Shown here piece by piece: positions 13,878 to 39,173 of a DNA stretch of 39,735 nt. Origin of the DNA: Actinomycetota bacterium (GTDB taxonomy: Bacteria > Actinomycetota > Acidimicrobiia > Acidimicrobiales > AC-14); the NCBI GenBank assembly GCA_040754375.1, contig JBFMCT010000027.1:7720-47454 (forward strand), in the 5' to 3' direction. The position numbers were made by a program, and so were the translations under genes. The notes under the pieces were generated by a model. That model searched no databases. It was not told the DNA's origin and saw nothing but the letters and a program-made list of their open reading frames with translations. The stretch's first letter is position 1, and each line of letters begins with the position of its first letter.

Positions 13878-14774
13878 TCAGCGCCGGCTGGCCATGCCCG
13901 CCGAGCCCCGGGCCAGGCGGCGGTCGATGCGCTCCTCCAGGCCGAGGCCCACGAAGGCGAAGCTGCAGACGACGAAGGCCACGCACAGGCCCGGGGGCAC
14001 GATCCACCACTTCCAGGCGCCGGTCAGGAACGCCCCCCGCTCGGTGGCGAACTGGATCATGCTCCCCCAGCTACGGCGCACCGGGTCCCCTAGGCCCACG
14101 AAGCTGAGGGCGACCTCGAGCAGGATGGCGATGCTCACCACCCGGACGAACTGGGCGATGAGCAGCGGGGTCACGGCCGGCACCACGTGGCGGCGTAGGA
14201 GGTAGGGCCCGCGGGCCCCGAAGGTACGGGCGGCCAGCACGTGCGCCCGCTCTCGCACGGAGAGGACCTGGCTGCGCACGATCCGGGCGGGCTCGGCCCA
14301 CAGGAGGAAGGCCACCAGGATCACCTGGGTGCGCATGCCCCGGTCCAGGTAGGACGCGACGACGATGATGAGCGGGATGGTGGGTACTACGAGGGCGAAG
14401 TCGACGGCCCGCATGAGCACGGCGTCGGCCGCCCCCCGGCGGTAGCCGGCGGCGGCACCCAGAAGGCCCCCGACCACTACCGCGATCGACGCGGCCGCCA
14501 CCCCGATCCCCAGCGATACCCGGGCGCCCCCGATCAGCTCGCTGAGGATGTCGTGGCCGATGTCGTCGGTACCCAGCGGGTGGGCCCGGCTCGGTTCCAG
14601 GAAGGGCCGCCCCGCCCGTTCCCCGGCCCCGTAGGGGGCGAGCGCCGGCCCGAGGACGGCCAGCAGAGCGAAGACGGCCAAGACGACCCCTCCGGCCACC
14701 ACCAGGGCCCGGCTGCCCCGGCCGGTGGGGCGCCCCCTGCGTCCCTCTCCCCTGCCCCTGCCCGACTTCCTCAT
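13878..14774 (-). CDS. dppC: Dipeptide/oligopeptide ABC transporter permease, DppC-type (system 1)
   Basis: 298 residues. A basic N-terminus is followed by a first helix (ALVVAGGVVLAVFALLAVLG), the periplasmic segment SRAHPLGTDDIGHDILSELI typical of DppC/OppC, and five further helices. The EAA-type loop lies in HVLAARTFGARGPYLLRRHV. The C-terminal helix region around WKWWIVPPGLCVAFVVCSFA is standard. It forms the channel with the DppB-type protein encoded just upstream (4-base overlap). It is the last gene of the four-gene operon 19290-13878. The substrate could be peptides, nickel or sugars; the family does not settle this. Confidence 0.9.
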   Translation of the reverse strand: MRKSGRGRGEGRRGRPTGRGSRALVVAGGVVLAVFALLAVLGPALAPYGAGERAGRPFLEPSRAHPLGTDDIGHDILSELIGGARVSLGIGVAAASIAVVVGGLLGAAAGYRRGAADAVLMRAVDFALVVPTIPLIIVVASYLDRGMRTQVILVAFLLWAEPARIVRSQVLSVRERAHVLAARTFGARGPYLLRRHVVPAVTPLLIAQFVRVVSIAILLEVALSFVGLGDPVRRSWGSMIQFATERGAFLTGAWKWWIVPPGLCVAFVVCSFAFVGLGLEERIDRRLARGSAGMASRR

Positions 14775-15814
14775 CGCTGCACGCGAGGGTCGAGGCGGGG
14801 ATAGATGAGGTCACCCACGAGGTTGGCGCCGACCACGATGACCGTCAGGACGAACAGCCCGCCCTGCAGGAGCGGGTAGTCGCGTCCGAACGACGCCTCC
14901 AGCAGCAGCGACCCCACGCCGCGATAGGTGAACACCCGCTCGATGATCACTGCCCCGCCGGCCAGTGCGCCCACGCGTAGCAGGACGCTGGTGGCGATGG
15001 GCAACGAGGCTGCGGGGAGGGCGTGGCGTACGGCGATGGTCCGCTCCCTGAGGCCCTTGGCCCGGGCCACGAGCACGTAGTCGTCACGGATGACGCCCAG
15101 CAGAGACGCCCGGGCCAGCAGGAAGACGGCGCCGACGCTGGACAGCACGAGGGTGGCCGCCGGCAGGACGAGGTGGTGGGCGATGTCACCGACGCGGGCC
15201 AGCCCGGTCGTGCGGTCGAGCGACATGTGCCCGAAGAGCGGGAACCATCGCAGGGTGGCCGCGAACCAGATGAGAAGTAGCAGGCCGATCCAGAAGGGCG
15301 GCGTCGACTCCAAGAACGTGAACAGCGCGATCGACCCCGTGTCCCGCCGCCGACCGCGGCGCCAGGCCGCCAGCGCGGCCAGCGCCACGCCCAGCACGGT
15401 ACTGACGACCAGGGCCGTCCCCACCAGCAGCAGCGTCCACGGGAGGCGCTCTCGCAGCAGGGTCGAGACGGGCTTGCGGTGGCGGAACGAGCAACCCAGT
15501 TCCCCCCGGGCCAGGCCCGCCATGTACCGGCCGTACTGGACGACCAAGGGCTGGTCGAGACCGACGCGCGCCAGCTCGTCGGCGATGGTCTCAGGGGGCA
15601 GACGGTTGGCGTCTTCGCCCAGCAGGAGGTCCACCGGGTTGCCGGGCATCATCCGAGGCAGGGCAAAGTTGGCGCTGGCCGCCACCAGCACGATCAGCAG
15701 GTACTGCGGGCCCCTTACCGCCAGCCGGCGTAGGGCCCGGTGGCGCCGGCGGGGACGCGCGGCCGGCACCGCCGGGCCCACGGGCGTGGCGTCCGCCGCG
15801 GCCGGGGCGGCCAT
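14771..15814 (-). CDS. dppB: Dipeptide/oligopeptide ABC transporter permease, DppB-type (system 1)
   Basis: 347 residues from ATG 15814, 15 bp after the binding-protein stop. N-terminal helix YLLIVLVAASANFALPRMMPG is followed by the DppB hallmark GNPVDLLLG and the periplasmic stretch GLDQPLVVQYGRYMAGLARG ending LGCSFRHRKPV. Later helices include the EAA loop DYVLVARAKGLRERTIAVRH, and it ends RDYPLLQGGLF plus LDPRVQR, as usual for the family. It partners the DppC-type permease with overlapping start and stop. The Ala/Pro/Arg-rich first 30 residues are probably cytoplasmic. Confidence 0.92.
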   Translation of the reverse strand: MAAPAAADATPVGPAVPAARPRRRHRALRRLAVRGPQYLLIVLVAASANFALPRMMPGNPVDLLLGEDANRLPPETIADELARVGLDQPLVVQYGRYMAGLARGELGCSFRHRKPVSTLLRERLPWTLLLVGTALVVSTVLGVALAALAAWRRGRRRDTGSIALFTFLESTPPFWIGLLLLIWFAATLRWFPLFGHMSLDRTTGLARVGDIAHHLVLPAATLVLSSVGAVFLLARASLLGVIRDDYVLVARAKGLRERTIAVRHALPAASLPIATSVLLRVGALAGGAVIIERVFTYRGVGSLLLEASFGRDYPLLQGGLFVLTVIVVGANLVGDLIYPRLDPRVQR

Positions 15815-15829
15815 GGGCGGCGGGACCGA

Positions 15830-17470
15830 TTACCTGGGCGCCAGCAGGGACGCCTTGTTCAGGATCCCGACGCCCTTGTAATAGACCCACCGGTCGAATG
15901 TCGATTCGCGGTAGGGGAAGATGTCGTCGGGATAGAAGATCGGGTAGGCCGGCATGTCCCGGGCCAGGACCTCCTGCATCTGGGCCAGCAGGCGGTTGCG
16001 GGTCGCCTCGTCGACCGCCCTGGTCTGCTGGTCGGCCAGCTCGTCGTACTGGGGGTTGCGGTAACCGGACCGGTTGAGCGTGCCCACCGACGGGTTGGAG
16101 TGGAACAGCGAGCGCAGGAAGTCGGGGTCCTGCTGCACGGCCGCGGCCCACGAGAACAGAGCGATCGTGTAGTCGCCCCGGGACTGGCCGATCTGGTAAT
16201 CAGGCCAGGTGCGGTTGCCGGCGGTGGCCTGGTCGAGGGCGGCCACATTGAGCTTGACGCCGACCCGGGCCACCGACTGGCTGAGGATCTCCGCGGCCCT
16301 CACGGCCACAGGGTCGTTGCTGCGCACCAGGAGCTCGAACTCCAGCGGCGACCCGTCCATCTCTCGCACCCCGTCGTTGTTGGTGTCGCGGAACCCGAGC
16401 CCGTCGAGCAGCGTGCGTGCCCGGTTGAGGTCGAGCGGGCCCTCCCGGGTGGCGGGGTTGGACCACGGCACCGAGCGGTGGACGAAGCCCGGGCTGCCGG
16501 TGGCCCCGGCCCCCAGCAGGGCGGTCTGGACGATGTCGTTGCTGTCGACGGCCGCGGCCATGGCCTGGCGGAACTCGGGGCGTTCGAACGGGGCCCGGCC
16601 GGTGTTCATGTACAGGTACCAGCCCCGGTAGCCGGAGCCGCCGGCCGTCTTCAGCCCGCCCTGGTTGAACTGGGCCCTCAGCTCGGGCGTGATCGAAACC
16701 GACACGGCGTCGGCGTCGCCGCTCTGGACTGCCGTGAAGGCCGCCTGGTTGTTGCCGATGATGGGCATCACGATCTCGTCGACGATGGGCCGGCCCTTGA
16801 AGTAGTCCGGGTTGGCCTGGAAGCGGTGGACCTGGCCCTCGACGTACTCCACCATCCGGTAGGGCCCGCTGCCCACGGGCAGCATCGTGACCTCGTCGAG
16901 GGGGTTGGTGATGGCCGACCACACGTGCTGGGGGATGATCGGCATGTCAGCCAGCGGGTTGAGCACGAACGACGCCTTGGGTTCTCTGAGGACGAACACC
17001 GCGGTGGTGGCGTCGGGGGTCTCCACCCGTTCGATGTTGGTCAGCACCCAGCGCGGCCTGGGGTTGGCCTGCAGGTACTCCACGGTGAACTTGACGTCGG
17101 CCGAGGTGAGCGGGCGCCCGTCGTGGAAGGTGACGCCCTCGTGGAGGCGGACGGTCCAGCGCAGCCCGCTCGGGTCGGAGCTGTACTCCCGGGCCAGCCA
17201 CGGCTCGGGCCGGCCGTCGGGGTCGAGCCACACCAGGGTGTCGTAGACCAGGGTCATCATGTAGTAGCCCGGGTAACCCGAGCCCTGGGTCCAGGGCGTG
17301 AGGTTGCGCTCCCCGGGCGCGATGGTGGCAAAGCGCAGGGTGGCGACCTGAGGGATCGTCGTGGTCACGCCTGGCTCCGGTTGGGCTGTCCCCCCGTTGC
17401 CGCTGTCGGAGGAGCAGGCGGCGGCGACCAGCCCCAGCCCGATGAGCATCGCCGTCAGCTTCCTTCTCAC
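15830..17470 (-). CDS. dppA: Peptide ABC transporter substrate-binding lipoprotein (system 1)
   Basis: 546 residues from GTG 17470, which overlaps the stop of the ATPase gene (GTGA). Signal peptide and lipobox LVAAAC put the lipidated Cys at residue 19. The mature protein is an SBP_bac_5 family member: NLTPWTQGSGYPGYYMMTLV, EPWLAREYSSDPSGLRWTVR, then LHEGVTFHDGRPLTSADVKF, the most conserved signature of the family. The C-terminal half (RTLLDGLGFRDTNNDGVREM) has the usual acidic loop. It sits outside the membrane and delivers substrate to DppBC. Much of the longer 758-residue frame upstream is a shadow of the ATPase gene. Confidence 0.92.
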   Translation of the reverse strand: MRRKLTAMLIGLGLVAAACSSDSGNGGTAQPEPGVTTTIPQVATLRFATIAPGERNLTPWTQGSGYPGYYMMTLVYDTLVWLDPDGRPEPWLAREYSSDPSGLRWTVRLHEGVTFHDGRPLTSADVKFTVEYLQANPRPRWVLTNIERVETPDATTAVFVLREPKASFVLNPLADMPIIPQHVWSAITNPLDEVTMLPVGSGPYRMVEYVEGQVHRFQANPDYFKGRPIVDEIVMPIIGNNQAAFTAVQSGDADAVSVSITPELRAQFNQGGLKTAGGSGYRGWYLYMNTGRAPFERPEFRQAMAAAVDSNDIVQTALLGAGATGSPGFVHRSVPWSNPATREGPLDLNRARTLLDGLGFRDTNNDGVREMDGSPLEFELLVRSNDPVAVRAAEILSQSVARVGVKLNVAALDQATAGNRTWPDYQIGQSRGDYTIALFSWAAAVQQDPDFLRSLFHSNPSVGTLNRSGYRNPQYDELADQQTRAVDEATRNRLLAQMQEVLARDMPAYPIFYPDDIFPYRESTFDRWVYYKGVGILNKASLLAPR

Positions 17471-19290
17471 AGGTTCCAGCCTCCCGTAGCCCGCCCATCG
17501 CCTGGCGAATGGGTCGTTATAGGTTCGCGCGTCCCGAGCCTGGCTGCTGCCTGAACGAGGGCTCGGGTGACCCGATGGGCCGGGGAGGCGATCACGTCGG
17601 CCCCCGGGCCGGTCTCGACGACCTCGCCGGCATGCATGACGACCAGGCGGTCGGCCACCTTGCGTACCAGTGCCAGGTCGTGGGACACCACGATCATGGC
17701 CATGCCCCGGGCCAGCTGCTGGTCCTTGAGCAGCACCATCAACTTCGCCTGCTCGGAGGCGTCGAGCATAGAGGTCGGCTCGTCGGCCAGGAGCAGGCGG
17801 GGGCCCAGCACCAGGGCGCGGGCCACGGCCACCCGCTGGAGCTGGCCACCCGACAGTTCGTGGGCCCGGCGGGCCATGAAGGCGTCGGTCTGGGGCAGGC
17901 CAACGGCGGCCAGGGCGGCGGCTACCTCCAAGCCCCGCTGGGCCGAGGTCCCGCTGTGCTGTACGTCGAGCGGCTCGCGCACGACCTCGGCGACCGACAG
18001 GAGCGGGCTCACGGCCTCGAACGGGTCCTGGAAGACGACGGCCACCCGGCGCCGGAAGTCGGCCCACTCGTGGCGGCCGAACGAAGCGAGAGGCCGGCCC
18101 TCCCACTCCACCGCCCCTCGGTCAGGCGCCTCCACGCCGACGAGGACCTTCACCAGGGTCGACTTGCCCGAGCCGGTCTCGCCCACCACCCCGACGACCT
18201 CGCCCTCGCGTACCTCCAGGCTCACGCCCTGAAGGGCGGTGACCGTCCGGCGCATGCCGGTGCGGTAGGTCTTTGTGACATCGGTGGCCGCCAGGCGGGT
18301 GAGGACGCCTCCCCGCAGGCACAGGATGCGGCGCCCGGCGACGGGCGCCAGCTCGGGCTCCCAGCTCGCGCACTCGTCGATGGCCTGGGTGCAGCGAGGG
18401 TGGTAGGGGCAGCCGGTCGGGGGGTCGGCGGGGTCGGGCGCCGCTCCCCGGATGCCCCGAAGGTCCTTCTGGGTGCTCATCGACGGGTAAGCGCCGACCA
18501 GATCGCGCGTGTAGGGGTGGCGGGGGTCGTCCAGGACCCTCGCCGTCGGCCCGTGCTCGACCACCATCCCGCCGTAGAGAACAGCCACCTCGTCGGTCAG
18601 GCGGGCCACCAACCCGAAATCGTGGGAGATGACCAGCAGCCCTACCCCCTCCTCGCGCCGTAGCCGGTCCAGGGTGTCGGCGATGGCGGCTTTGGTCGAG
18701 CTGTCGAGGCCCGACGTGGGTTCGTCGAGCACCAGTAGGGGCGGGTCACAGGCCAGGGCCATGGCCAGCATGGCCCGCTGGCGCTCGCCCCCCGACAGCT
18801 CGTGGGCATAGCGCTCCAGCAGGTCGGGGCTCAGCTCGACCAGCCGGGCGAGGTCGCTCGCCTTGTCGCGGGCGGCGCCGCGGCTCAGTCCAAGGTGCAG
18901 GCGCATGGGCTCGGTGACTTGGGAACCGATGGTCCGCACCGGGTTGAAGCCCCGGCCCGGGGCCTGGATCACGTAGGCCGCCGTCCGCCCCCGGTGCCGG
19001 CGGACGGCCTCGGCGCTTGCGCCCACCAGTTCCTCTCCGCCCAGGCGCACGCTGCCCCCGATCGCGGCCTCGGCGGGCAGCAGGCGCAGGGCGGACAGGG
19101 CCAGCGTCGTCTTGCCGCTACCCGACTCCCCCACCACTCCCACCGCCGACCCCGTGCTCACCGAGAGAGTGACCCCCCGCAGCGCTTGGACCTCGGCCCC
19201 GCCCGGGTCGTAGGTCACCCGTAGGCCCGACAGCTCCAGCCGCGGGCCCGATGCCCCCTCTCCCCCGCCCGTGCCCTCCCCCGCAGCCAT
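17467..19290 (-). CDS. dppD: Fused double ATPase of peptide ABC transporter (DppD-DppF, system 1)
   Basis: 607 residues from ATG 19290. Two complete ABC domains lie in one chain. The first has Walker A GESGSGKTT, signature ELSGGERQRAMLAMAL, Walker B LLVLDEPTSGLD and H-loop ISHDF. The second has GETGSGKST, ELSGGQLQRVAVARAL, LLLADEPTSMLD and VSHDL. Between them is the peptide-transporter C-terminal region with a Cys cluster (GCPYHPRC, then DECASW and RRILCL), which in some DppD proteins binds an iron-sulfur cluster. Separate DppD and DppF are usual; the fusion removes the need for heterodimer assembly. It is the first gene of the operon, with its start just past a strong terminator hairpin. The longer frame to 19335 adds non-native residues. 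Confidence 0.93.
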   Translation of the reverse strand: MAAGEGTGGGEGASGPRLELSGLRVTYDPGGAEVQALRGVTLSVSTGSAVGVVGESGSGKTTLALSALRLLPAEAAIGGSVRLGGEELVGASAEAVRRHRGRTAAYVIQAPGRGFNPVRTIGSQVTEPMRLHLGLSRGAARDKASDLARLVELSPDLLERYAHELSGGERQRAMLAMALACDPPLLVLDEPTSGLDSSTKAAIADTLDRLRREEGVGLLVISHDFGLVARLTDEVAVLYGGMVVEHGPTARVLDDPRHPYTRDLVGAYPSMSTQKDLRGIRGAAPDPADPPTGCPYHPRCTQAIDECASWEPELAPVAGRRILCLRGGVLTRLAATDVTKTYRTGMRRTVTALQGVSLEVREGEVVGVVGETGSGKSTLVKVLVGVEAPDRGAVEWEGRPLASFGRHEWADFRRRVAVVFQDPFEAVSPLLSVAEVVREPLDVQHSGTSAQRGLEVAAALAAVGLPQTDAFMARRAHELSGGQLQRVAVARALVLGPRLLLADEPTSMLDASEQAKLMVLLKDQQLARGMAMIVVSHDLALVRKVADRLVVMHAGEVVETGPGADVIASPAHRVTRALVQAAARLGTREPITTHSPGDGRATGGWNL

Positions 19291-19392: not shown

Positions 19393-19743
19393 TCAGCCCG
19401 CGGGCTCGAGGTCGTCGGGGATGCAGAACCACACCGTCTCGTAGCCGACCACGAACAGGCCGTCGTCGTCGTAGACGGGCATCTCGAAGGGCGACGGGTG
19501 GTAACCGGGCGGGCAGTTGATGAAGCTGTCGATGGGCCCGGTCGGCCCGCCGCCCCGCGGGGCCCGCAGGGCCAGGACGGCAACGCCGCCGGTGCGGGTG
19601 GCGGGCTCGTAAGCCACGGTCGTGGCTGCGGGCGCCCCGACGGCTGCGGTCTTCGTCTCGGCCGCGTGAGCGGCGCCGGGCACGAGCAGGGCGGCGGCAA
19701 AGGTGGCCGTCCCCAGGAGCTTGGTGATCGTCGTTCCCCTCAT
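19393..19743 (-). CDS. Small secreted two-cysteine protein
   Basis: 116 residues from ATG 19743; a GAAGGGAGAA ribosome binding site is directly upstream. A classic signal peptide (TKLLGTATFAAALLVPGAAHA) is cleaved after AHA near residue 27. The mature part is an Ala/Thr-rich spacer, a Gly/Pro-rich turn (RAPRGGGPTGPIDS) and a compact end INCPPGYHPSPFEMPVYDDD, then VVGYETVWFCIPDD. The two Cys (in INCPPG and WFCIP) could form one disulfide. No family recognised. It is divergent from the gene for the HWQTA repeat protein, with a shared 185-bp promoter region, and lies between two peptide transporter clusters. A structural or signalling role is possible but unproven. Confidence 0.65.
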   Translation of the reverse strand: MRGTTITKLLGTATFAAALLVPGAAHAAETKTAAVGAPAATTVAYEPATRTGGVAVLALRAPRGGGPTGPIDSFINCPPGYHPSPFEMPVYDDDGLFVVGYETVWFCIPDDLEPAG

Positions 19744-19928
19744 GGTGTTCTCCCTTCGCTGCGGAGGGTGTTTCCCGTCCGTCGGAGGTGAGAGGCCGGG
19801 ACCGGCCCGGACCTGACAACTTTTTCGTCGACGTGGGCCCTTTGGCGGGACCTTGGGCCCTGGGAGCCGGGCCCGATCCGTGGGTGAATGGACCTACGAG
19901 AACGAACGTCCCGGAAGGAGACAACCCC

Positions 19929-20249
19929 ATGAGCGCCAACCCCGTCCTCACCATCGCCGGTGTGATGCCCGGGAGCCCGGAGATGACCCACTGGCAGACG
20001 GCGTCGCACGGGCCGGACATCGCCGCCTCTCGCGGCAACTCCGGTGGCGGGCCCTCGCTCTCGATGGCCGGTGCCATGCCCACCGCCCCCACCGCCTCGC
20101 ATTGGCAGACGGCCTTCCCCAACGGCGAGGCCGTCTACGTCGACGCCCTGCGGGCCGCCGAGGCCCGAGCGGCCATCGCCGCCCATGTCGTCGAGCTGCC
20201 CAAGCCGGCCGCCCGGCGCCGGTCCCGCCGCCAGCTCAAGGCCGCGTAG
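19929..20249 (+). CDS. Small cytoplasmic protein with two HWQTA-ending repeats
   Basis: 106 residues from ATG 19929 with a strong ribosome binding site (GGAAGGAG). Residues 7-25 and 44-62 are two copies of one motif, LTIAGVMPGSPEMTHWQTA and LSMAGAMPTAPTASHWQTA: 11 of 19 positions identical and the others mostly conservative. They are separated by a Gly/Ser-rich linker (SRGNSGGGPS). A C-terminal helix (VDALRAAEARAAIAAHVVEL) and a basic tail (ARRRSRRQLKAA) follow. There is no signal peptide, membrane helix or Cys. The repeat-plus-helix layout recalls precursor proteins with repeated core peptides, but no modification enzyme is adjacent except a methyltransferase 4 kb away. Alternatively it is a small nucleic-acid or protein-binding factor. 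Confidence 0.7.
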   Translation: MSANPVLTIAGVMPGSPEMTHWQTASHGPDIAASRGNSGGGPSLSMAGAMPTAPTASHWQTAFPNGEAVYVDALRAAEARAAIAAHVVELPKPAARRRSRRQLKAA

Positions 20250-20268
20250 GCGCCCCGGCCGGGCCCTT

Positions 20269-20352
20269 CCGTGCTCCCGGCCGGGCCCGCCCGCCCCGCC
20301 CGTCCCAGCCACGGGCCCGGCGGCGGTGCGCATGCCCGAGCCGGGAGCACGG
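20269..20352. terminator. Inverted repeat with long loop after the HWQTA protein gene
   Basis: CCGTGCTCCCGGC at 20269-20281 and its perfect complement GCCGGGAGCACGG at 20340-20352. The 58-base loop is itself very GC-rich and can fold further. It lies just downstream of the gene stop, so termination is likely; a regulatory RNA structure upstream of dppB is an alternative. Confidence 0.45.
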
Positions 20353-20414
20353 TCCTGGCCGGGTGGGCCGTAGGGGCCCGGCGGCAGCTGTGGCCGGCGT
20401 GACCGGCTGTCCCG

Positions 20415-20420
20415 TACCCT
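20415..20420 (+). promoter_or_regulatory. -10 hexamer TACCCT upstream of the system 2 permeases
   Basis: TACCCT ends 7 nt before GTG 20428, the leaderless spacing seen elsewhere in the window. It suggests the permease genes have their own promoter. Confidence 0.4.
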
Positions 20421-20427
20421 CGGCGCC

Positions 20428-21489
20428 GTGAGCGCCGCCCCCGCCGTCGATGCCCCCGGCGGCACGCTCGCACCCGACCCCACAGCGTCCCCGGCCGGGC
20501 CCCGCCGGGCGCGCCACCGGGCCGCGAAGACCATCGCCCTGTACGCCGTGACGCTGTGGGCGGTGGTGACCCTGGTCTTCTTCCTCCCCCGCTTCCTGCC
20601 CGGCGACCCGTTGCGCCAGCTCGACGACCCCGACAGCATCGGGTTCGTCTACGACGCCGCCGCCCGTGAGCGGGTGGCGGCCTACTACGGGCTCGACAAG
20701 CCCCTGTTCGTGCAGTACCGCGACTACCTGGGCGACCTGGTGCGGGGCGACTTCGGGTGGTCGATCTCCCAGAACACCGAGGTCTCCACCCTCATGCGCA
20801 ACCGCCTGCCGTGGACCCTGCTGTTGACGGGCAGCGCCCTCATGCTGTCGTCAGCCATCAGCTTCATGGCCGGGGTCACGGCCGCCTGGAACCGGGGGCG
20901 CTTCAAGGACCGCGCCCTCATCGTGGTGCTGTCTGCGTCACGGGCCATCCCCGAGTACGCCATCGCCAGCGCCCTGCTCATCATGTTCGCGGTGACGTGG
21001 CCGATCTTCCCCCAGGCCGGGGCGCGCACGCCCTTCGCCACCTACGGGTCGGTGTTCGAGCAGGTCGGGGACATCCTGTTCCACCTCGCCCTGCCCCTCA
21101 CGGCGCTGACGCTGGGCCTGGCCGCCAACAAGTTCCTGATCGTGCGCAACACGGTGATCTCGACCCTGGGCGAGGACTACATGGTGCTGGCCCGGGCCAA
21201 GGGGCTCTCGCGCCGGCTCCTCAAGTACCGCCACTCGGGCCGCAACGCCCTGCTCCCCTTCGTCACCGCCTTGGGGGTGCAGGCCGGCTTCGCGGTGGGC
21301 GGTTCGCTCTTCGTCGAGACGATCTTCAACTACCCGGGCATGGGGACGCTCGTCGAACGGGCGGTCACCGGGCGGGACTACCCCTTGCTCCAGGGGTGCT
21401 TCATCCTGCTGGCCATTGTCGTGCTGGTGGCCAACCTCGTGGTCGAGCTGATCTACGGCAAGCTCGACCCCCGGGTGGTGGAGCGGTGA
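20428..21489 (+). CDS. dppB: Dipeptide/oligopeptide ABC transporter permease, DppB-type (system 2)
   Basis: 353 residues from GTG 20428. The N-terminal tail is Ala/Pro-rich. The first helix IALYAVTLWAVVTLVFFLPR leads into FLPGDPLRQL and the conserved stretch YYGLDKPLFVQYRDYLGDLV, DFGWSISQN. The EAA loop is DYMVLARAKGLSRRLLKYRH, and the end RDYPLLQGCFILLAI plus KLDPRVVER is as in DppB. It overlaps the next permease by 4 bases. Unlike system 1, its ATPase and binding protein are on the opposite strand, converging from the right. Confidence 0.92.
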   Translation: MSAAPAVDAPGGTLAPDPTASPAGPRRARHRAAKTIALYAVTLWAVVTLVFFLPRFLPGDPLRQLDDPDSIGFVYDAAARERVAAYYGLDKPLFVQYRDYLGDLVRGDFGWSISQNTEVSTLMRNRLPWTLLLTGSALMLSSAISFMAGVTAAWNRGRFKDRALIVVLSASRAIPEYAIASALLIMFAVTWPIFPQAGARTPFATYGSVFEQVGDILFHLALPLTALTLGLAANKFLIVRNTVISTLGEDYMVLARAKGLSRRLLKYRHSGRNALLPFVTALGVQAGFAVGGSLFVETIFNYPGMGTLVERAVTGRDYPLLQGCFILLAIVVLVANLVVELIYGKLDPRVVER

Positions 21490-22412
21490 CCGCCGTCACC
21501 ACCCCCTCGCCCATCGAAGAGGGTGCCCCCCCTCCCCCGCCCCCGTCGTCGCCCAGGGGTACGGAGCGGTCCGAGAGGAGGCGCCACCCCGGCCGGGCGG
21601 CGGCCATCGCCGGGAGCCTCATCATCGGTCTCTACGTGTTCCTGGCCCTGTTCGGGGGGCGTCTCGCCCCCTTCCGGGCTACCGAGCTGGCCGGGCGGCC
21701 CCTCCAACCTCCTGGGGGTGCCCACACGCTGGGCACCAACCTGCTGGGCCAGGACATCCTCAGCCAGCTCATCCTCGGGGCCAAGGCCTCGCTCACGGTG
21801 GCCGTCCTGGCCGGGATCGGCACGGTTCTGCTGGGGGCCATCGTCGGCGTTGCAGCCGGCTGGTTCCCGGGCTGGCCGGGGGCGGTGCTCATGCGAGTGA
21901 CCGACGTCGTGCTGGTGATCCCCAAGCTGCCTTTGCTGCTGCTCATGGGCGCCCTCACCGGTGGCTCGGTGCTGGGCCTCTCGATCGTCATCTCCGCCCT
22001 GTTCTGGCCGGTGGCGGCCCGGATCCTGCGTTCCCAGGTGCTGAGCCTGCGCACCCGCACCCACGTGAAGGCGGCCACCGGGTTCGGCGCCGGGAGCTGG
22101 CACCAGCTCCGCCGCCACATACTCCCTGACCTGTCGCTCCTGTCGGTGGCCGAGCTGATCCCGGCCGCCGGTCGGGCCGTGGGCCTGCAGGCCGGCCTCG
22201 CCTTCCTCGGTGTGGGCGACCCGACGGAGCCGTCATGGGGGGCCATGATCCGCGACGCGGTCAACTTCCGGGGGCTGTTCATCACCGAGGCGTGGCAGTG
22301 GTGGCTGCTGCCTCCCGTGCTCGCCCTGGTCGGCCTGGTCGTGGGCATCACCCTGCTGGGCACGGCCGCCGAGCGCAAGCTCAGCCCCCGGGTCGCCCGT
22401 CACCAGCGCTGA
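21486..22412 (+). CDS. dppC: Dipeptide/oligopeptide ABC transporter permease, DppC-type (system 2)
   Basis: 308 residues from GTG 21486, overlapping dppB by 4 bases. A proline-rich cytoplasmic head (EEGAPPPPPPSSPRG) comes first. Then AIAGSLIIGLYVFLALFGGR is the first helix, HTLGTNLLGQDILSQLILGA the DppC signature, and HVKAATGFGAGSWHQLRRHI the EAA loop. The C-terminal part (LGVGDPTEPSWGAMI, then WQWWLLPPVLALVGLVVGIT) is standard. It ends 22 bp from the convergent ATPase gene stop. Confidence 0.92.
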   Translation: MTAVTTPSPIEEGAPPPPPPSSPRGTERSERRRHPGRAAAIAGSLIIGLYVFLALFGGRLAPFRATELAGRPLQPPGGAHTLGTNLLGQDILSQLILGAKASLTVAVLAGIGTVLLGAIVGVAAGWFPGWPGAVLMRVTDVVLVIPKLPLLLLMGALTGGSVLGLSIVISALFWPVAARILRSQVLSLRTRTHVKAATGFGAGSWHQLRRHILPDLSLLSVAELIPAAGRAVGLQAGLAFLGVGDPTEPSWGAMIRDAVNFRGLFITEAWQWWLLPPVLALVGLVVGITLLGTAAERKLSPRVARHQR

Positions 22413-22433
22413 CCGGCGCCCGCTGGGCCAGGA

Positions 22434-24215
22434 TCAGGCGGGCTGGTGGCCGTTCTCAGCCGCGAACAGCAGGTCGCGGCCGGCGGCCGACAGGAGCGAC
22501 CGCGTGACCGCGTGCCGGGGCCGGGCCAGCATGGGCCCACCCGCCCCCTCTTCCACGATGCGGCCGCCGGCCAGCACCAGCACCCGGTCGGCCACCCGCA
22601 GGACCACCGAGAGGTCGTGGGAGATGAAGATCATGGCCATCCCCCGCTCCACCTGGAGGTGCTTGAGGAGCTGGATCATCTTGGCCTGCTCGCTGGGGTC
22701 GAGCATCGACACGGCCTCGTCGGCGATCAGCAGGCGGGGCTCGAGCACCAGCGCCCGGGCCAGCGCCACCCGCTGGAGCTGGCCGCCCGACAGCTCGTGG
22801 GTATGGCGCCCCATGAAGGCCTCGTCGGTGGGCAGCCGGCAGTCGGCCACGGCCCGCTCGACCAGCGCCCGGCGGGTGGCCGAGTCGCCCCTCTCCTGGA
22901 CATCGAGCGGCTCCTGGACAGCCTGGGCCACGGTCAGCCGGGGCGAGAGAGACTCGAAGGGGTCCTGGAAGAGCATCTGCACCTGGGCCCGGAGCCTCTT
23001 GAGGCCGTCCCCCGACGCCGTGAACAGGTCGTGCCCGTCGAAGGTCACCGTCCCCCCGTCGGCCTCCAGCAGCCGCACCAGCAGCATGCCCAAGGTGGAC
23101 TTGCCGGCCCCCGTCGAGCCGACCAGGCCGACGACTTCGCCCTCTCGGACATCGAGGTTGATGCCGTCGACGACCGTGAGCGTCTCCTTGCGGCCCAGCA
23201 GGCCCCCCGACGAGTAGCTCTTGCGCAGGCCCCGGGCGGCCAGCAAGGCCACCACTCCGCCCCGGGAACAGGCCACCAGGCGGGGGCCGTCCTCGCCGTG
23301 GGGCGGCAGCAGCGGGGGCTCCCCATGGGTGCACAGCTCGTCGCGGCTCTGGTGGCAACGACCGTAGAACGGGCAGCCGTCGGCCACCTCGCCGGGGTTG
23401 GGTGGTGTCCCCCTGATGCCCCGCAGGTCCTTTACCGAGGCCAGCGTGGGCCGGGCGTTGAGCAGGGCCCAGGAGTAGGGGTTGCGGGGGTCTCCCAGCA
23501 CGTGGGCCCGCGGCCCGATCTCGGCCAGCCAGCCGCGGTAGAGCACGGCCACCCGGTCAGCCAGCATCTCCAGGGCGTCGGCGTCGTGGCTGAGCACGAC
23601 CAGCGAGGTGCCGGCCTCGCGCACGGCCCCCAACAGGGACAGCACCCGGTTGCGGGTCGAGGGGTCGAGGCCGGCAGTGGGCTCGTCGAGGATGATCACG
23701 TCGGGCCGGCAGGCCAGGGCCATGGCCAGCAGGCACAGCCGGCGCTGGCCGCCGGAGAGCTCGCGCGGGAAGCGGCCCGAGGCCCACGGCCCGAGGCCCA
23801 CCTCGCCCAGCAGCTCGTCGGCCCGCTGGCCGGCTTCCTCGCGCCCCATCTCCAGGTGGATGCGCAACGGTTCGGCCAGTTGCTGGCCGATACGGAGAAC
23901 GGGGTTGAGGGCCGAGGTCGACTGGAAGCCCAGGGCGATGCGCTTCCACCGCACCTCGCGCCAGTGGTCCTCGTTCAGCTTGGACAGCTCGACGTCGCCG
24001 AGGCGGACCGTTCCCTCCACGGTGGCCTCGGGAGCCAGGCCCAGCACCGCCCGGGCCAACGTTGACTTACCCGAGCCCGATTCCCCCAGCACACCCAGGC
24101 ACTCCCCCGGCTCGACGGTGAGGCTCACCCCGGCCACGGCTCGCACCGGGCCGGGGTAAGTCACCACCAGGTCCCTCACCTCGAGGGCCGCCGCCTTCGA
24201 CCTCTCAGGTCGCAA
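22434..24215 (-). CDS. dppD: Fused double ATPase of peptide ABC transporter (system 2)
   Basis: 593 residues from TTG 24215, which overlaps the methyltransferase stop by 11 bases. The first ABC domain has GESGSGKST, ELSGGQRRLCLLAMAL, VIILDEPTAGLD and LSHDA. The second has GSTGAGKST, ELSGGQLQRVALARAL, LLIADEAVSMLD and ISHDL. The second Walker B follow-on reads DEAVSMLD instead of DEPTSMLD, an unusual but probably tolerated change. The linker holds the Cys-containing peptide-transporter region (GCPFYGRCHQSRDELC). It is the same fused architecture as system 1, so the two probably arose from one ancestor. The start is supported by coupling to the upstream stop; a GTG about 11 codons later is possible. 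Confidence 0.9.
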   Translation of the reverse strand: MRPERSKAAALEVRDLVVTYPGPVRAVAGVSLTVEPGECLGVLGESGSGKSTLARAVLGLAPEATVEGTVRLGDVELSKLNEDHWREVRWKRIALGFQSTSALNPVLRIGQQLAEPLRIHLEMGREEAGQRADELLGEVGLGPWASGRFPRELSGGQRRLCLLAMALACRPDVIILDEPTAGLDPSTRNRVLSLLGAVREAGTSLVVLSHDADALEMLADRVAVLYRGWLAEIGPRAHVLGDPRNPYSWALLNARPTLASVKDLRGIRGTPPNPGEVADGCPFYGRCHQSRDELCTHGEPPLLPPHGEDGPRLVACSRGGVVALLAARGLRKSYSSGGLLGRKETLTVVDGINLDVREGEVVGLVGSTGAGKSTLGMLLVRLLEADGGTVTFDGHDLFTASGDGLKRLRAQVQMLFQDPFESLSPRLTVAQAVQEPLDVQERGDSATRRALVERAVADCRLPTDEAFMGRHTHELSGGQLQRVALARALVLEPRLLIADEAVSMLDPSEQAKMIQLLKHLQVERGMAMIFISHDLSVVLRVADRVLVLAGGRIVEEGAGGPMLARPRHAVTRSLLSAAGRDLLFAAENGHQPA

Positions 24216-25143
24216 AGAGCACCGACCGGCCCCCGCGCCCGGGTAGGTCCGACACCCCTTCGTCGACGGTGAACCCGGCCTCGCCCAGCCACTGCCGGTA
24301 CTCGGCCTCGGTGTGGGTGTCGCCCCCGTTGCCGTTGATCAGCATCTGGACGGCGAACAGGCGGGCGTGGTCGTTGCGGGCCTGGATGGAGGTGACGACG
24401 GCCACCCCCCCGGTGACCACCGGCCGCAGGTTGTTGTAGAGCATGAGGTTGCGCTCACCGTCGAAGGTGTGGGTGATGCCCGAGCAGAAGGCGAGGTCGA
24501 ACGGCCCCTCGGGCACCGAGTCGAAGAAGCTGCCCGCGAACAGCTCCACGCCCGCGGCGTCGAGCCGGCCCCGCTTGCGGGCCACCTCGATCATGGCCGG
24601 GCGGTCCTGCATGGTCGCCTTCAGGCCCCGGCGGGCGAACTCCAGGGAGTACTCGCCGTGGAGCCCGCCGAGGTCGAGGACCGTACGGGCCTCGGGGAAC
24701 CGGGCCAGGCAGGCGTCGACCACCGCCGGGGCGACCCGGCGGGCGTTGGCCGCCAGCGCGTCGTGGAAGGCCTCGGGGTCAGGGGTGGCCGCCTCCCTGC
24801 TGAGGTCCTCGCCCCGTAGGGCCGGCCCCACGGCCGTGGCCCACCGCCGCATCGACCGGGCGTGGTGGCCGATGGTGTGCAGGGTGTCGGCGTCGGGGGC
24901 CGACGGCCCCGGGCGGTACTCACCCCCTTCGCCGGCCTCCACCACGCCTAGCGCCTCCAAGGCCTGGAGGACCACCCTGAGGGCGTGGGTGTCGAGGCCC
25001 AGGTCGGCAGCCAGGCCGTCGACGGTGCCGGGCAGGGCCGACAGCACCCCGGCCGAGGCCGCCTGGTCGCAGAGAAGGACCAGGCGCCAGTCGGCCACCT
25101 CGCCCGGAGGGGCGAGGAACGTCAGGTCGTTGGGGGCCATCAT
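24205..25143 (-). CDS. O-methyltransferase-like SAM enzyme inside the transporter operon
   Basis: 312 residues from ATG 25143, sharing one base with the binding-protein stop (TGATG). Residues 20-75 form a winged-helix dimerisation domain (DWRLVLLCDQAASAGVLSAL, then LAADLGLDTHALRVVLQALE). A Rossmann methyltransferase domain follows: motif I VLDLGGLHGE (155-164), with D180 (MQDRPAMI) as the likely SAM ribose-binding acid, and FDLAFCSGITHTF as motif IV. This matches the Methyltransf_2 family, which methylates hydroxyls of small molecules. An enzyme of this type between a peptide-binding lipoprotein and its ATPase is unusual. It may modify the imported or exported compound. The substrate is not predictable. 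Confidence 0.85.
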   Translation of the reverse strand: MMAPNDLTFLAPPGEVADWRLVLLCDQAASAGVLSALPGTVDGLAADLGLDTHALRVVLQALEALGVVEAGEGGEYRPGPSAPDADTLHTIGHHARSMRRWATAVGPALRGEDLSREAATPDPEAFHDALAANARRVAPAVVDACLARFPEARTVLDLGGLHGEYSLEFARRGLKATMQDRPAMIEVARKRGRLDAAGVELFAGSFFDSVPEGPFDLAFCSGITHTFDGERNLMLYNNLRPVVTGGVAVVTSIQARNDHARLFAVQMLINGNGGDTHTEAEYRQWLGEAGFTVDEGVSDLPGRGGRSVLFAT

Positions 25144-26807
25144 CAGTTGGCGGGCGCCGGGTCGGCCGTGCCCGCCACCAGGTGGCGCTTGTTGCCCGTG
25201 ACCCCGCATGGAGGGCAGCCGGGCGTGTAGGCGAAGCCCGCGAACTTCTTGTCGTCCACGAAAGAGACCTGGTCGGGCACGTAGAGCGAGATCTGCGGGA
25301 GGTCCTCGGCCAAGATCTCCTGCATCCGGTTCACGAGCTGGCGGCGGCGGGCCGGGTCGGCCTCTTGGGCCTGCTCGCTGGCCACGCGGTCGAACTCGGG
25401 GTTGTTGTAGCCGTGCACCCGGGTGAACGACGTGCTGCGGGTCGTCGAGGAGAACCGGTTGATCAGCCCCGACGGGTCGCCCGAGAGCCCGCCGAAGTGC
25501 TGGACGGCCATCTCGTAGTCGCCGCTGCCACCCCGGGCGTCCATCGTGGCCTGGTCGACGGCGATGATCTCGACGTCGATGCCCACGGCCCGCAGGTACT
25601 CCCGCACGAGCTGGGCCTGGGCCGTGTCCGAGGAGCTGACCACCAGGGGCACCTTGAAGGCCGAGCCGTCGGGCCGGTCTCGCAGCCCGTCGCCGTTGCG
25701 GTCGCGGAGGTCGATCTGGTCGAAGAGGGCGCCCGCCCGGGCCTTGTCATGGGCATAGGTGGGCAGGTTGGGGTTGAGGAAGGCGTTGCCCGGGCCCAGG
25801 GCGCCGGCCGGGCCGGGGATGCCCCGGCCGTCGACCAGCCGGTCGACCATGTCTTGGCGGTCGAGGCCGTAGACCACGCCCTGGCGGAAAGCCTTCTCGT
25901 TGTAGGGGTAGCCCTTGCTGGGGTTGAAGAACAGGGCCAGGTTGAACTCGCCGCGGGCCGTGAGGACCTTGTAGCGGCTGGCCAGGGCGTCGTACTGCAC
26001 CTTGGGGATCAGCGAGTTGCCGCCGCTGGCGGCGTCGACCTCGCCCCGGTCCAGGGCCAGCAGGGCGTCGGCCACGGGCACGATCTGGAACCGCTCGACC
26101 CGGGCCGGGCCCAGGTGGAACTCCTCGTTGGCCACGAAGTTGAAGCTGTTGGTGGTGAGGTCGAAGTCCTGGAGCTTGTAGGGCCCCGAACCGATGAGCG
26201 AGGTCGGCCCCTGGAACTTGGCCGGGTCCTCCACCGTCTCCCAGATGTGCTTGGGCATGATGGCGAACCCGAAGGTGCCGCCTACATCGAGCAGGAAGCT
26301 GGGGCGCACGTTGCGCAGTTGGACCACGACCGTGAGCGGGTCGGGGGTCGTCACCGACTCGATGTAGTTGATGCCCGTGGCCACGCCCGCGGTCGACCCC
26401 GCGCCGTTGATGTTGTAGTCGAAGGTGAACCGCACGTCCTCGGAGGTCAGCGGCATGCCGTCGTGGAAGCGCACGTTCTCGTGCAGGTTGAACGTCCACG
26501 TCAGGCCGTCGGGCGAGGTCGTCCACGACTTGGCCAGCCACGGCTTGGGCTCGCCGGTCACATCCGGGAAGGCCAGCGTGTCGAATATGTAGGTGGTGAT
26601 GAGGCGACCGGGGCCGCGGATGGCGGCGTAGGGGTGTGGGTAACCCCCGCTCTGGGTGCCGGCCGCGATCCGCAGGGTGACCCGCTGGTTGGGGTCGGGG
26701 CCTCCGGTGCCGGTCCCGGTCGAGGTCGTGTCGCTGCTACTGCAGGCGGCCGCGGCCAATGCCAGCGTGGCCGCTAGGGCGGAGATCTTGAGCCGGCGGC
26801 TCAACAT
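25143..26807 (-). CDS. dppA: Peptide ABC transporter substrate-binding lipoprotein (system 2)
   Basis: 554 residues from ATG 26807; AGGAGG lies 10 nt upstream, which favours this start over ATG 26816, where the spacing would be one base. The signal sequence ends in the lipobox AAAC (Cys 22) and a Ser/Thr/Gly linker. The mature protein is SBP_bac_5: YPHPYAAIRGPGRLITTYIF, KPWLAKSWTTSPDGLTWTFN, then LHENVRFHDGMPLTSEDVRF. The C-terminus has an extra CPPCG motif (TPGCPPCGVTGNKRHL), absent from the system 1 protein, which could form a disulfide or bind metal. First gene of a three-gene operon. Confidence 0.92.
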   Translation of the reverse strand: MLSRRLKISALAATLALAAAACSSSDTTSTGTGTGGPDPNQRVTLRIAAGTQSGGYPHPYAAIRGPGRLITTYIFDTLAFPDVTGEPKPWLAKSWTTSPDGLTWTFNLHENVRFHDGMPLTSEDVRFTFDYNINGAGSTAGVATGINYIESVTTPDPLTVVVQLRNVRPSFLLDVGGTFGFAIMPKHIWETVEDPAKFQGPTSLIGSGPYKLQDFDLTTNSFNFVANEEFHLGPARVERFQIVPVADALLALDRGEVDAASGGNSLIPKVQYDALASRYKVLTARGEFNLALFFNPSKGYPYNEKAFRQGVVYGLDRQDMVDRLVDGRGIPGPAGALGPGNAFLNPNLPTYAHDKARAGALFDQIDLRDRNGDGLRDRPDGSAFKVPLVVSSSDTAQAQLVREYLRAVGIDVEIIAVDQATMDARGGSGDYEMAVQHFGGLSGDPSGLINRFSSTTRSTSFTRVHGYNNPEFDRVASEQAQEADPARRRQLVNRMQEILAEDLPQISLYVPDQVSFVDDKKFAGFAYTPGCPPCGVTGNKRHLVAGTADPAPAN

Positions 26808-32579: not shown

Positions 32580-32918
32580 GTGCACGAGCTGTCTCTCTGC
32601 GAGGCCATCGCCGCCTCGGTCGAGCGCCACGCCGCCGGGCGGCCGGTGGCCGAGGTAACAGTAAGGGTGGGCCACCTTCGCCAGGTGGTACCCGACGCCC
32701 TCACCTTTTCCTGGGAGGTGCTCACCGCGGGGACTTCGCTGGCCGGGTCGGCGCTCGTCGTCGAGCAGGTGCCGGCCGTCGTGCGCTGCGGGCCGTGCGG
32801 CTCCGAGACCACCTTGGACATGCCGGTCCTGCTGTGTGGGTCGTGCGAGAGCGGCGACGTGGCCCTGCTCAGCGGGGAGGAGCTCCAGGTGGTCTCCCTC
32901 GACCTGGCGGGGGCCTAG
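32580..32918 (+). CDS. hypA: Hydrogenase nickel-insertion protein HypA
   Basis: 112 residues from GTG 32580. The N-terminal HELSLCEAI carries the nickel-binding His2 and Glu3. Two CxxC pairs (C70/C73 in VRCGPCG and C86/C89 in LLCGSCES) form the structural zinc site. It delivers nickel to [NiFe]-hydrogenase, together with HypB. hypB follows 2 bp later. No hydrogenase structural gene is in this window, so the client enzyme must lie elsewhere. Confidence 0.93.
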   Translation: MHELSLCEAIAASVERHAAGRPVAEVTVRVGHLRQVVPDALTFSWEVLTAGTSLAGSALVVEQVPAVVRCGPCGSETTLDMPVLLCGSCESGDVALLSGEELQVVSLDLAGA

Positions 32919-32920
32919 CC

Positions 32921-33697
32921 GTGGGCCGCTTCCACCGCCACCCCGACGGTACCGGGCACGAGCACGACCATGTGGACGACGACGGCCACGGCCATGCCGG
33001 CAGCGGGCGGGCCGGCGACCACAGTGGGTACCAGGCCACCGGGCGGGACCGGGTGGCCGTGCTGGAGGACATCCTGTCCGAGAACGACAGGGTGGCCGAG
33101 GCCAACCGGCGGGACCTGGCGACCGCCGGGGTCCGCACCGTCAACCTCATGTCCTCGCCGGGTGCGGGCAAGACCACCCTGCTGCGAAGGACGCTGATCA
33201 CCATCGGCGACCACGCCCGGGTCGGCGTGCTCGAAGGCGACATCGCCACCTCCATCGACGCCGACCGCCTCGACGGCTTGGCCGCAGCCGTGACCTTGGT
33301 CAACACCAGCGCCGGTTTCGGCGGCGAGTGCCACCTCGACGCCGTGATGGTTCGCTCGGGGCTGGCCCGGCTCCCACTCCCCGACCTCGACCTGCTCGTC
33401 ATCGAGAACGTCGGCAACCTCGTGTGCCCGGCCGAGTTCTCAGTGGGCGAGGACGCCAAGGCCATGGTCTACGCCGTCACCGAAGGCGAGGAGAAGCCCC
33501 TGAAGTACCCGGTCATGTTCCGGGCGGTGGACGTGGTGGTCGTCAACAAGGTCGACCTTCTCCCCTACCTCGACTTCGACCTAGACGCCTTCTACGCCAA
33601 CCTGGCGGCCGTCAACCCCCAGGCCCGGGTCATCCGGGCCAGCGCCCGCACGGGCGAGGGCGTCGAGGAATGGTGCCACTGGGTGCTCAACGGATGA
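32921..33697 (+). CDS. hypB: Hydrogenase accessory GTPase HypB
   Basis: 258 residues from GTG 32921. The N-terminal 40 residues are His-rich (HRHPDGTGHEHDHVDDDG, then HGH) and should store nickel or zinc. The SIMIBI GTPase domain has Walker A SSPGAGKTT (around 79-86), EGDIATSIDADR, the metal-site segment GECHLDA with its Cys-His, IENVGNLVCPAEF, and the guanine motif NKVDLLPY. It powers nickel insertion with HypA. The CxxCGC high-affinity nickel motif of E. coli HypB is absent. Followed by a 101-bp inverted-repeat element and then a metal transporter operon. Confidence 0.94.
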   Translation: MGRFHRHPDGTGHEHDHVDDDGHGHAGSGRAGDHSGYQATGRDRVAVLEDILSENDRVAEANRRDLATAGVRTVNLMSSPGAGKTTLLRRTLITIGDHARVGVLEGDIATSIDADRLDGLAAAVTLVNTSAGFGGECHLDAVMVRSGLARLPLPDLDLLVIENVGNLVCPAEFSVGEDAKAMVYAVTEGEEKPLKYPVMFRAVDVVVVNKVDLLPYLDFDLDAFYANLAAVNPQARVIRASARTGEGVEEWCHWVLNG

Positions 33698-33701
33698 GGC
33701 A

Positions 33702-33802
33702 CTAGGCGGCTGGTGTCTTTCGCGATCGGCGCTTCGCGCCGAGCGGCTGGTCGGCACTGGGCGGTCGGCCGCCTTGGGAGTGTTCCGACACCAGCCACCT
33801 AG
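33702..33802. repeat. 101-bp MITE-like inverted-repeat element
   Basis: CTAGGCGGCTGGTGTC at 33702-33717 and, at 33787-33802, the complement of CTAGGTGGCTGGTGTC: 15 of 16 terminal bases match. Inside is a 7-bp stem TCGGCGC-TTC-GCGCCGA and a second small stem GGCGG-TCGG-CCGCC. It could be a miniature mobile element or a compound terminator between hypB and znuA. Confidence 0.65.
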
Positions 33803-33829
33803 CGGACCGGAGGCGCCGGCCCTAGACTG

Positions 33830-33854
33830 GAGAGCGGTTCTTATTACTGCTCTC
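33830..33854 (+). promoter_or_regulatory. Promoter/operator candidate of the metal transporter operon
   Basis: GAGAGC and GCTCTC flank a 13-bp AT-rich core (GGTTCTTATTACT region), rare in this DNA. It ends 16 bp before ATG 33871; GGAGG lies between. It could bind a metal regulator such as Zur or MntR, although it does not match their known boxes well. Confidence 0.35.
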
Positions 33855-33870
33855 AGCCTCCGGAGGCCCA

Positions 33871-34809
33871 ATGCGCCGTGTTGCCCTGGTCACGATCGTC
33901 GTCGGGATGCTCGCGGCGGCGTGCGGCGGCGGCAACGGGGGCGGCCAGGGGGCTGATGGCCGCCTGGGCGTCGTGGCCAGCTTCTACCCCCTGGCCGAGG
34001 CTGCCCAGCGGGTCGGTGGCGACCGCGTCCAGGTGACCAACCTCACTCCCGCGGGTGCCGAACCCCACGACCTCGAGCTGACCACCCGGGACATCGACCG
34101 GGTGGAGTCGGCCGCTCTCGTCGTCTACCTGGGCGCCGGCTTCCAGCCCGCCATCGAACGGGCCGTCGAACGGGCCCGGGGCCGGGCCATCGACGTCCTC
34201 GATGACCTCGACCTGCTCGACGGGCACGAGGACCACGACGATGGCCATGACGACGACCACGACGACGGGCACGGGCACGAGGAGGGTGACCCCCACGTAT
34301 GGCTCGACCCCACCATCATGAAGCGCATCGCCGCCCAGGTGGCCGAGGCCCTGGCCGAGGCCGACCCCGACGGCCGGGCCACCTACCTGGCCAACGCCGA
34401 GGCCTACGGCCGCGAGCTCGACGCCCTCGACGCCGAGATGCGCCAGGGCCTGGCCCAGTGTGCCCGGCGGGTCATCGTCACCTCCCATGACGCCTTCGGT
34501 TACCTGGCCCAGCGCTACAACCTGGTGCAGGAACCGATCAGCGGCCTCTCCCCCGAGGCCGAGCCCGACCCCCGGCGCATGGCCCAACTGGTGGACATGG
34601 TCCGCTCGACGGGCACGACCACCATCTTCTACGAGACGCTCGTCTCCCCCCGGGTGGCCGAGGCCCTAGCCCGCGAGGCGGGCGTGCGGGTGGCGGTGCT
34701 CAACCCGCTCGAGGGCCTGACCGATGAAGAGGCCCGGGCCGGCAAGACGTACGCTGCGATCATGCGGGAGAACCTGGGCACGCTGCGCCCTGCCCTCGGC
34801 TGCACGTGA
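33871..34809 (+). CDS. znuA: Zinc/manganese ABC transporter substrate-binding lipoprotein (ZnuA-like)
   Basis: 312 residues from ATG 33871. A signal peptide ends in lipobox AAAC (Cys 18). The cluster A-I metal-binding protein family features are present: VVASFYPLAEAAQRVGGDRV, PAGAEPHDLE (first His ligand), then an acidic His-rich loop (about residues 118-138, GHEDHDDGH and repeats), DPHVWLDP (H142), VTSHDAFGYL and IFYETLVSP. The His-rich loop favours zinc over manganese. It feeds ZnuB through ZnuC, encoded directly downstream. Located after hypAB, whose products also handle Ni/Zn. Confidence 0.92.
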   Translation: MRRVALVTIVVGMLAAACGGGNGGGQGADGRLGVVASFYPLAEAAQRVGGDRVQVTNLTPAGAEPHDLELTTRDIDRVESAALVVYLGAGFQPAIERAVERARGRAIDVLDDLDLLDGHEDHDDGHDDDHDDGHGHEEGDPHVWLDPTIMKRIAAQVAEALAEADPDGRATYLANAEAYGRELDALDAEMRQGLAQCARRVIVTSHDAFGYLAQRYNLVQEPISGLSPEAEPDPRRMAQLVDMVRSTGTTTIFYETLVSPRVAEALAREAGVRVAVLNPLEGLTDEEARAGKTYAAIMRENLGTLRPALGCT

Positions 34810-34837
34810 CCCGGCCCGGCCGGCCCGGCCGCGCCCG

Positions 34838-38169: not shown

Positions 38170-39173
<1,004 letters not shown>

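Follow-up and report, generated by a model that had tools for sequence, protein, structure and literature searches.

Opp/Dpp/Nik importers of the GsiA- and YejF-like type, in which the ATPase is fused, are assembled from a substrate-binding protein (SBP) of the SBP_bac_5 family, two BPD_transp_1 permeases and an ATPase with an oligo_HPY region. In the staphylopine and opine (Cnt) metallophore systems, an importer of the Opp/Nik class is coupled to an S-adenosylmethionine (SAM)-dependent enzyme, and CntL of these systems is nicotianamine-synthase-like. Transporters are also associated with the protein FmdE: the portions consulted here of the 2010 structure paper on this protein (Axelrod et al., PMC2954224) state that most PF02663 genes adjoin metal-ion transporter genes and that a D. 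hafniense FmdE binds zinc/nickel through His15, His17, Cys19 and Cys55, the function of FmdE being left open. We describe here an importer of the Opp/Dpp/Nik class, designated module 2, which contains an O-methyltransferase (OMT) gene within its operon and which belongs to a sub-clade physically linked to FmdE. Module 2 lies in a 39,735-nt stretch of DNA, termed the window in this report, from an Actinomycetota bacterium of the class Acidimicrobiia (assembly GCA_040754375.1, 3.5 Mb in 105 contigs; genome G000 of our series, with the window on contig C27). Its neighbours are another importer, transporter 1, and the genes for two small proteins of 106 and 116 amino acids (aa).

Results

Organization and conservation of module 2

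Module 2 consists of transporter 2 and the OMT and occupies positions 20428-26807 of the window, with the two permease genes on the plus strand and the fused ATPase, OMT and SBP genes on the minus strand. The identities given below are to the proteins of three related genomes, G003, G004 and G006.

25143..26807, minus strand: SBP2, first gene of module 2; PF00496 (SBP_bac_5), 212.4 bits against a cut-off of 32.4; lipobox-like N-terminus
24205..25143, minus strand: OMT, SAM-dependent, between SBP2 and ATPase 2; PF00891 (Methyltransf_2), 44 bits against 22.3
22434..24215, minus strand: ATPase 2, fused DppD/DppF-type; two ABC_tran stretches and oligo_HPY; 78-80% identity
20428..21489, plus strand: permease B2; PF00528, 115.1 bits; 80-81% identity
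21486..22412, plus strand: permease C2; PF00528, 72.2 bits; 77-80% identity

The OMT scores above the Methyltransf_2 family cut-off, a class assignment compatible with methylation of O, S or N. Its gene overlaps both neighbours, the SBP2 stop at its start (25143) and the ATPase 2 frame at its stop (24205/24215), and because of these overlaps the translational coupling to the second transporter that was proposed in the initial annotation of this region is plausible.

We observed that module 2 is complete in G003, G004 and G006, which are of the same Acidimicrobiia family and represent two genera (g4 for G003, g5 for the other two) besides that of the window (g1). Protein identities are 68-81% overall, with 75-77% for the SBP, 68-72% for the OMT, 78-80% for the ATPase and 77-81% for the permeases. 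The order SBP-OMT-ATPase is kept in each of the three, with both permeases nearby, and the OMT can therefore be assigned to the second transporter, as had been supposed from the window alone. Relatives of the OMT were found in 6/60 genomes including that of the window, at 69-74% identity in G003, G004, G006 and a further genome, G008, and at 40% in G048.

Linkage of the SBP2 clade to FmdE

In a tree of 18 binding proteins (one row being an 82-aa fragment), SBP2 grouped with proteins from G003, G004, G006, G008, G150 and contig C13 of the window genome in a seven-member clade with support of 99/98, within which the four copies having the OMT inside the operon formed a nested clade (95/90). An FmdE gene (PF02663) is located within about 1 kb in 6/7 members of the larger clade. 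In G003 it is flanked by permC2 and ATPase 2, and in G004 and G006 it is divergent from SBP2; in G008 it comes right after the ATPase, which together with an SBP fragment is found where the contig begins, the permeases being beyond that start or elsewhere; and in G150 the locus order is FmdE-permB-permC-SBP, followed by the ATPase start. The sixth case, on contig C13, holds the sole FmdE found in the window genome, and there FmdE and the permB gene of a paralogous transporter are about 1 kb apart:

L104:4589-11558, one strand: FmdE-linked paralogue of module 2; FmdE, permB, permC, fused ATPase, SBP

This paralogue is 45% identical to module 2 in its SBP, 66% in its ATPase and 51-61% in its permeases, and no OMT gene separates its SBP and ATPase genes. 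The simplest history would be that an importer operon linked to FmdE acquired the OMT once and that the window copy lost the FmdE linkage. The members of this clade also vary near the SBP C-terminus, where a CPPCG motif is conserved in SBP2 and its three orthologues; the C13 paralogue has CSPC, and the motif is absent in G150.

Alignment to the solved member 2glz placed the metal site, HGHxC plus a distal Cys, in our FmdE proteins. Residues H14, H16, C18 and C53, which are invariant in 6/6 sequences, correspond to the published D. hafniense ligands, and four zinc-finger-like Cys are likewise invariant in 6/6. In a search of ten genomes of the family, FmdE was found in five (G000, G003, G004, G006 and G008); OMT and FmdE were both present in these 5/10 and both absent from the other 5/10.

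Comparison of module 2 with described systems

Module 2 is like the GsiA-/YejF-like importers in its SBP_bac_5 protein, its two BPD_transp_1 permeases and its oligo_HPY fused ATPase; it differs from Opp/Dpp/Nik importers in that SBP2 and both permeases score below every NCBIfam cut-off listed for them, and in having an OMT gene inside the operon. Compared with NikABCDE, it is of the same protein class, has an ATPase that scores above the NikE cut-off, and has NikA among the nearest solved relatives of its SBP, but it lacks the nickel contact residues, its SBP falls below the cut-off, and its ATPases are fused. Both fused ATPases of the window in fact pass NCBIfam nickel (NikE/NikD-type) cut-offs (for ATPase 2 and NikE, 378.7 against 332.55 bits), which counts for little because both ABC domains of the fused protein contribute to the score and the ATPase of transporter 1 exceeds the cut-offs too. 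The coupling of a SAM-dependent enzyme to an Opp/Nik-class importer recalls the Cnt systems, yet SBP2 scored 118.5 bits where the CntA cut-off is 800, and the OMT is of a different family from CntL. With the FmdE-associated metal-ion transporter loci, as these appear in the consulted portions of PMC2954224, the clade shares the proximity of FmdE (about 1 kb, 6/7 members) and the kept metal ligands; it differs in that the window copy is without an adjacent FmdE and that one lineage has added an OMT. Our literature searches (FmdE with transporters or methyltransferases; O-methyltransferase with oligopeptide transporter and metallophore) yielded no description of such an operon among the titles and abstract openings listed.

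The neighbouring small proteins

The initial annotation had placed two small proteins, which are encoded by a divergent gene pair, in one system with both transporters and the OMT.

19929..20249, plus strand: 106-aa protein, a neighbour and not part of module 2; motif repeats at 19947-20003 and 20058-20114
19393..19743, minus strand: 116-aa protein with two Cys, an orphan neighbour

The two repeats noticed earlier in the 106-aa protein are identical at 11/19 positions, a value reached by 0/1000 shuffles. We regard the gene as real because it has an AAGGAG ribosome site and because its differences from a homologue are concentrated in the third codon position (52, against 32 and 26, over 102 codons). 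A full-length search matched 4/99 genomes; the G017 match was removed, since on the same strand a gene reading as dihydropteroate synthase overlaps it in a different frame, leaving the window genome, G003 (51%) and G006 (38%). A repeat profile added one-copy proteins in G018, in G004, on contig C30 of G006 and on contig C21 of the window genome, so that G000 and G006 each have two motif paralogues. The C21 paralogue (C21:42200-42277; L050:1629-1874) is an 81-aa protein with one copy of the motif at an unrelated locus.

By family search, the motif occurs in 4/10 genomes. A search of the class gave matches better than 1e-12 in 3/296 genomes; the nine other listed genomes (including G262, G280 and G244) had weak matches that were rejected on reading, as were weak matches of the motif search on G000 contig C13 and G006 contig C60, and the G239 and G033 rows were likewise dropped from the family. 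At E <= 0.5 the profile search matched 171/298 genomes, of which a minority were read. A pattern scan of genome contigs gave 43 matches, two of them relatives (in G003 and G006), and among 32 pattern matches in viral contigs there was no relative of the 106-aa protein. These searches, which covered the class plus the viral- and genome-contig scans, place the motif in two families of one order. The motif, P-x-hyd-[ST]-x-[AG]-G-x-x-P-G...W, defines a real and undescribed family of small proteins that carry one or two copies of it and are otherwise dissimilar.

The genes beside the motif genes vary, and by translation reading include a BNR-type exported protein, an alcohol dehydrogenase with an ATP-binding cassette (ABC) exporter, a flavin adenine dinucleotide (FAD) oxidoreductase with a DUF1003-like protein, an FtsH-like gene and a DUF255-like gene. 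When seven motif loci were compared all against all, they shared only the orthologous flanks of genus g5, a hypA/hypB pair (12 kb from the 106-aa gene in the window, 4 kb in G006) and ABC ATPase paralogues; no modifying-enzyme family recurs among the neighbours, not all of which are annotated. Searches of Pfam, NCBIfam and PHROGs gave no convincing match for either small protein, the best (E 0.024) being to a PHROG of unknown function.

The 116-aa protein is probably secreted, as had been suggested, its two Cys and its signal-peptide-like N-terminus both having been recognized by reading. No credible homologue was found in 99 genomes; a G027 match (37%, E 4.4e-4) was dropped, a stop lying inside it. 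As an orphan, this protein can be used neither for nor against the idea of a single system.

At the module-2 loci of G003, G004 and G006, in stretches of 15-19 kb, we found neither small protein and no transporter 1. In the stretches read, the genes for relatives of the 106-aa protein are close neither to a transporter of the two types nor to the OMT; by the refutation criterion that the initial annotation had set for itself, this counts against its proposal as far as the 106-aa protein is concerned. The distribution in G006 is instructive: the transporter-1 orthologue and a major facilitator superfamily gene are on contig C116, the 106-aa homologue and hypA/hypB are on C77, and module 2 is on C101 together with znuABC-like genes. 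These are draft contigs, module 2 ending 0.7 kb from a contig end, so that physical closeness there is not fully excluded. With this caution, because the blocks are separate in G006 and were not found together at the other module-2 loci, the dense cluster of the window looks like a local gathering, and both small proteins seem to be independent neighbours of module 2 and not parts of it.

Transporter 1 and other genes of the window

The initial annotation reported two Dpp/Opp-type transporters side by side, each with DppD and DppF fused. All of the genes it described are present, each transporter consisting of an SBP, two permeases and a fused ATPase, and in Pfam searches both ATPases show two ABC_tran stretches and one oligo_HPY. 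Transporter 1 lies outside the interval 19393-26807 that was under consideration:

13878-19290, minus strand: transporter 1, with
13878-14774, minus strand: permease C
14771-15814, minus strand: permease B
15830-17470, minus strand: SBP1
17467-19290, minus strand: fused ATPase

The oligo_HPY C-terminal regions of the two ATPases score 58.4 and 84.7 bits (cut-off 27.1), and SBP1 scores 253.4 bits for SBP_bac_5 (Pfam cut-off 32.4), which places it in the Opp/Dpp/Nik importer class. The transporter 1 permeases were assigned by tblastn: at 37-42% they hit the very permease genes that are also found with the transporter 2 permeases as queries. SBP1 is in the opposite half of the SBP tree from SBP2. 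An orthologue of transporter 1 (79-85%) was found in 1/20 other genomes searched, G006, on another contig than module 2, the next best match being 39%.

Three further groups of genes were noted. At 32580-36459, hypA and hypB (the latter by reading) adjoin a znuA/znuC/znuB-like metal importer. At 37120-39173, a RuBisCO-like protein is followed by an IF-2B family protein, presumably MtnA (methylthioribose-1-phosphate isomerase) on our own reading, and the two are perhaps a methionine salvage pair. At 4001-6895, a Phage_integrase-family recombinase precedes a 490-aa protein with several Cys pairs, which had no Pfam match at 1e-5; this is a possible mobile element.

Discussion

In the explanation that we favour, to which we give about even weight, two unrelated things adjoin in the window: module 2 would be an importer of metal or metal chelate with a recruited OMT, and the small proteins and transporter 1, the latter a separate system, would be independent of it. 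A metal or metal chelate is the best-supported guess for the substrate because of the transporter context of FmdE and its kept metal ligands, and the FmdE link therefore favours metal-type uptake over peptide production. Metal genes also occur near module 2, namely the znuABC-like genes in both the window and G006, and hypA and hypB in the window. The scheme we infer is as follows. One lineage of the FmdE-linked sub-clade would have taken up the OMT gene between SBP and ATPase. The lipoprotein SBP2 would bind a metal, either as the ion or, with higher probability, chelated by an organic ligand; such a ligand is favoured over a bare ion because the operon includes an OMT. What is captured would be imported through the permease pair, driven by the fused ATPase. 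FmdE, encoded elsewhere in the window genome, may sense or receive the metal, and the OMT may methylate the organic ligand, either while the ligand is being made or in processing after import.

Several observations weigh against this explanation. Module 2 of the window has no adjacent FmdE. In a sample of the class, FmdE was present in 8/247 genomes, six of them new (G150, G024, G106, G089, G158 and G282), of which we inspected the first four; in G024, G106 and G089, FmdE had no SBP2-type transporter as a neighbour over the stretches examined, the G106 and G089 loci being on short contigs and the G024 and G106 FmdE proteins only about 30% identical. FmdE is thus not always beside an SBP2-type transporter, but the SBP2 clade is nearly always beside FmdE. 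The co-occurrence of FmdE and OMT may reflect only the ancestry of one sub-clade: genera g1, g4 and g5 have both and g2, g3 and g6 neither. In G008, the OMT gene is away from the importer and directly before an ABC-2 type exporter (L060:8056-10600), which represents either a relocation or an older state. The residues that we take to be the nickel-histidine contacts of E. coli NikA (Trp100, Arg137, His416) are not conserved in SBP2 in an alignment to that protein, and SBP2 scored 130.9 bits for the NikA equivalog (cut-off 393); on both counts nickel was rejected as an inference from NikA similarity. Nickel was also rejected as an inference from HypA, which is present in 4/5 FmdE-positive and 2/5 FmdE-negative genomes and does not discriminate between them. 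An Rfam search of seven sources gave no riboswitch, the sole match being a transfer-messenger RNA in L062, and the structure model of SBP2 is too poor to be of help (mean predicted local distance difference test, or pLDDT, of 40.9).

Some of these points would be expected if module 2 imported an ordinary organic nutrient (a peptide, glycoside or aromatic compound) that the OMT modifies or detoxifies after uptake, with FmdE linked for some other reason. Among proteins of solved structure, the best match to SBP2 binds a sugar (mannoside), the NikA contacts are absent, and solved SBP_bac_5 proteins, judged by their molecule names, bind not only nickel but also peptides, sugars and opines. Yet FmdE proteins with a metal site are found repeatedly near this SBP clade, and the metal-transport context of FmdE is stated in the consulted portions of PMC2954224; we consider a nutrient importer possible but rather doubtful. 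The system proposed at the outset would produce, methylate and secrete a small protein, or something made from it, and take this up again through both transporters. It accounts for the closeness of the parts in the window and for the conserved coupling of OMT and transporter. Of that proposal, the tie between OMT and second transporter stands, and the inclusion of the small proteins and transporter 1 is not supported. These parts were not found in the stretches examined at other module-2 loci, their relatives in G006 are distributed over three contigs of a draft assembly, and relatives of the 106-aa protein adjoin unrelated genes. Comparison with G003, G004 and G006 led us to reject the whole cluster as one system, and we hold the making and re-import of such a product to be extremely improbable.

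The 106-aa protein could, by itself, be a precursor peptide like those of ribosomally synthesized and post-translationally modified peptides, or it could be disordered and present a docking motif to some conserved protein; in either case its partner would be encoded elsewhere. A short conserved motif in one or two copies within otherwise dissimilar small proteins, the paralogue pairs of G000 and G006, and a structure model with low confidence over the repeats (mean pLDDT 52.7, with one helix at 66-88) are consistent with either role; against them, no known family matches convincingly, and the only genes that recur around the motif genes are the g5 flanks, hypA/hypB (two loci) and the ABC ATPase paralogues. 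We think both roles quite unlikely. Only a little less unlikely, taken jointly, is a broader proposal. In it, Acidimicrobiia would have a pathway, not described so far, for a methylated metallophore (or cofactor-ligand), and module 2 would provide the uptake half as a chelate importer that depends on FmdE and whose OMT completes or recycles the chelator; the motif would mark small, disordered proteins of a new family, each docking to a partner.

The window provides an example of a striking neighbourhood in one genome in which, once relatives are compared, a conserved core can be told from mere bystanders. As FmdE, the importer and a SAM-dependent methyltransferase occur in the same genomes, the role of FmdE and the nature of the substrate should be testable in one operon.

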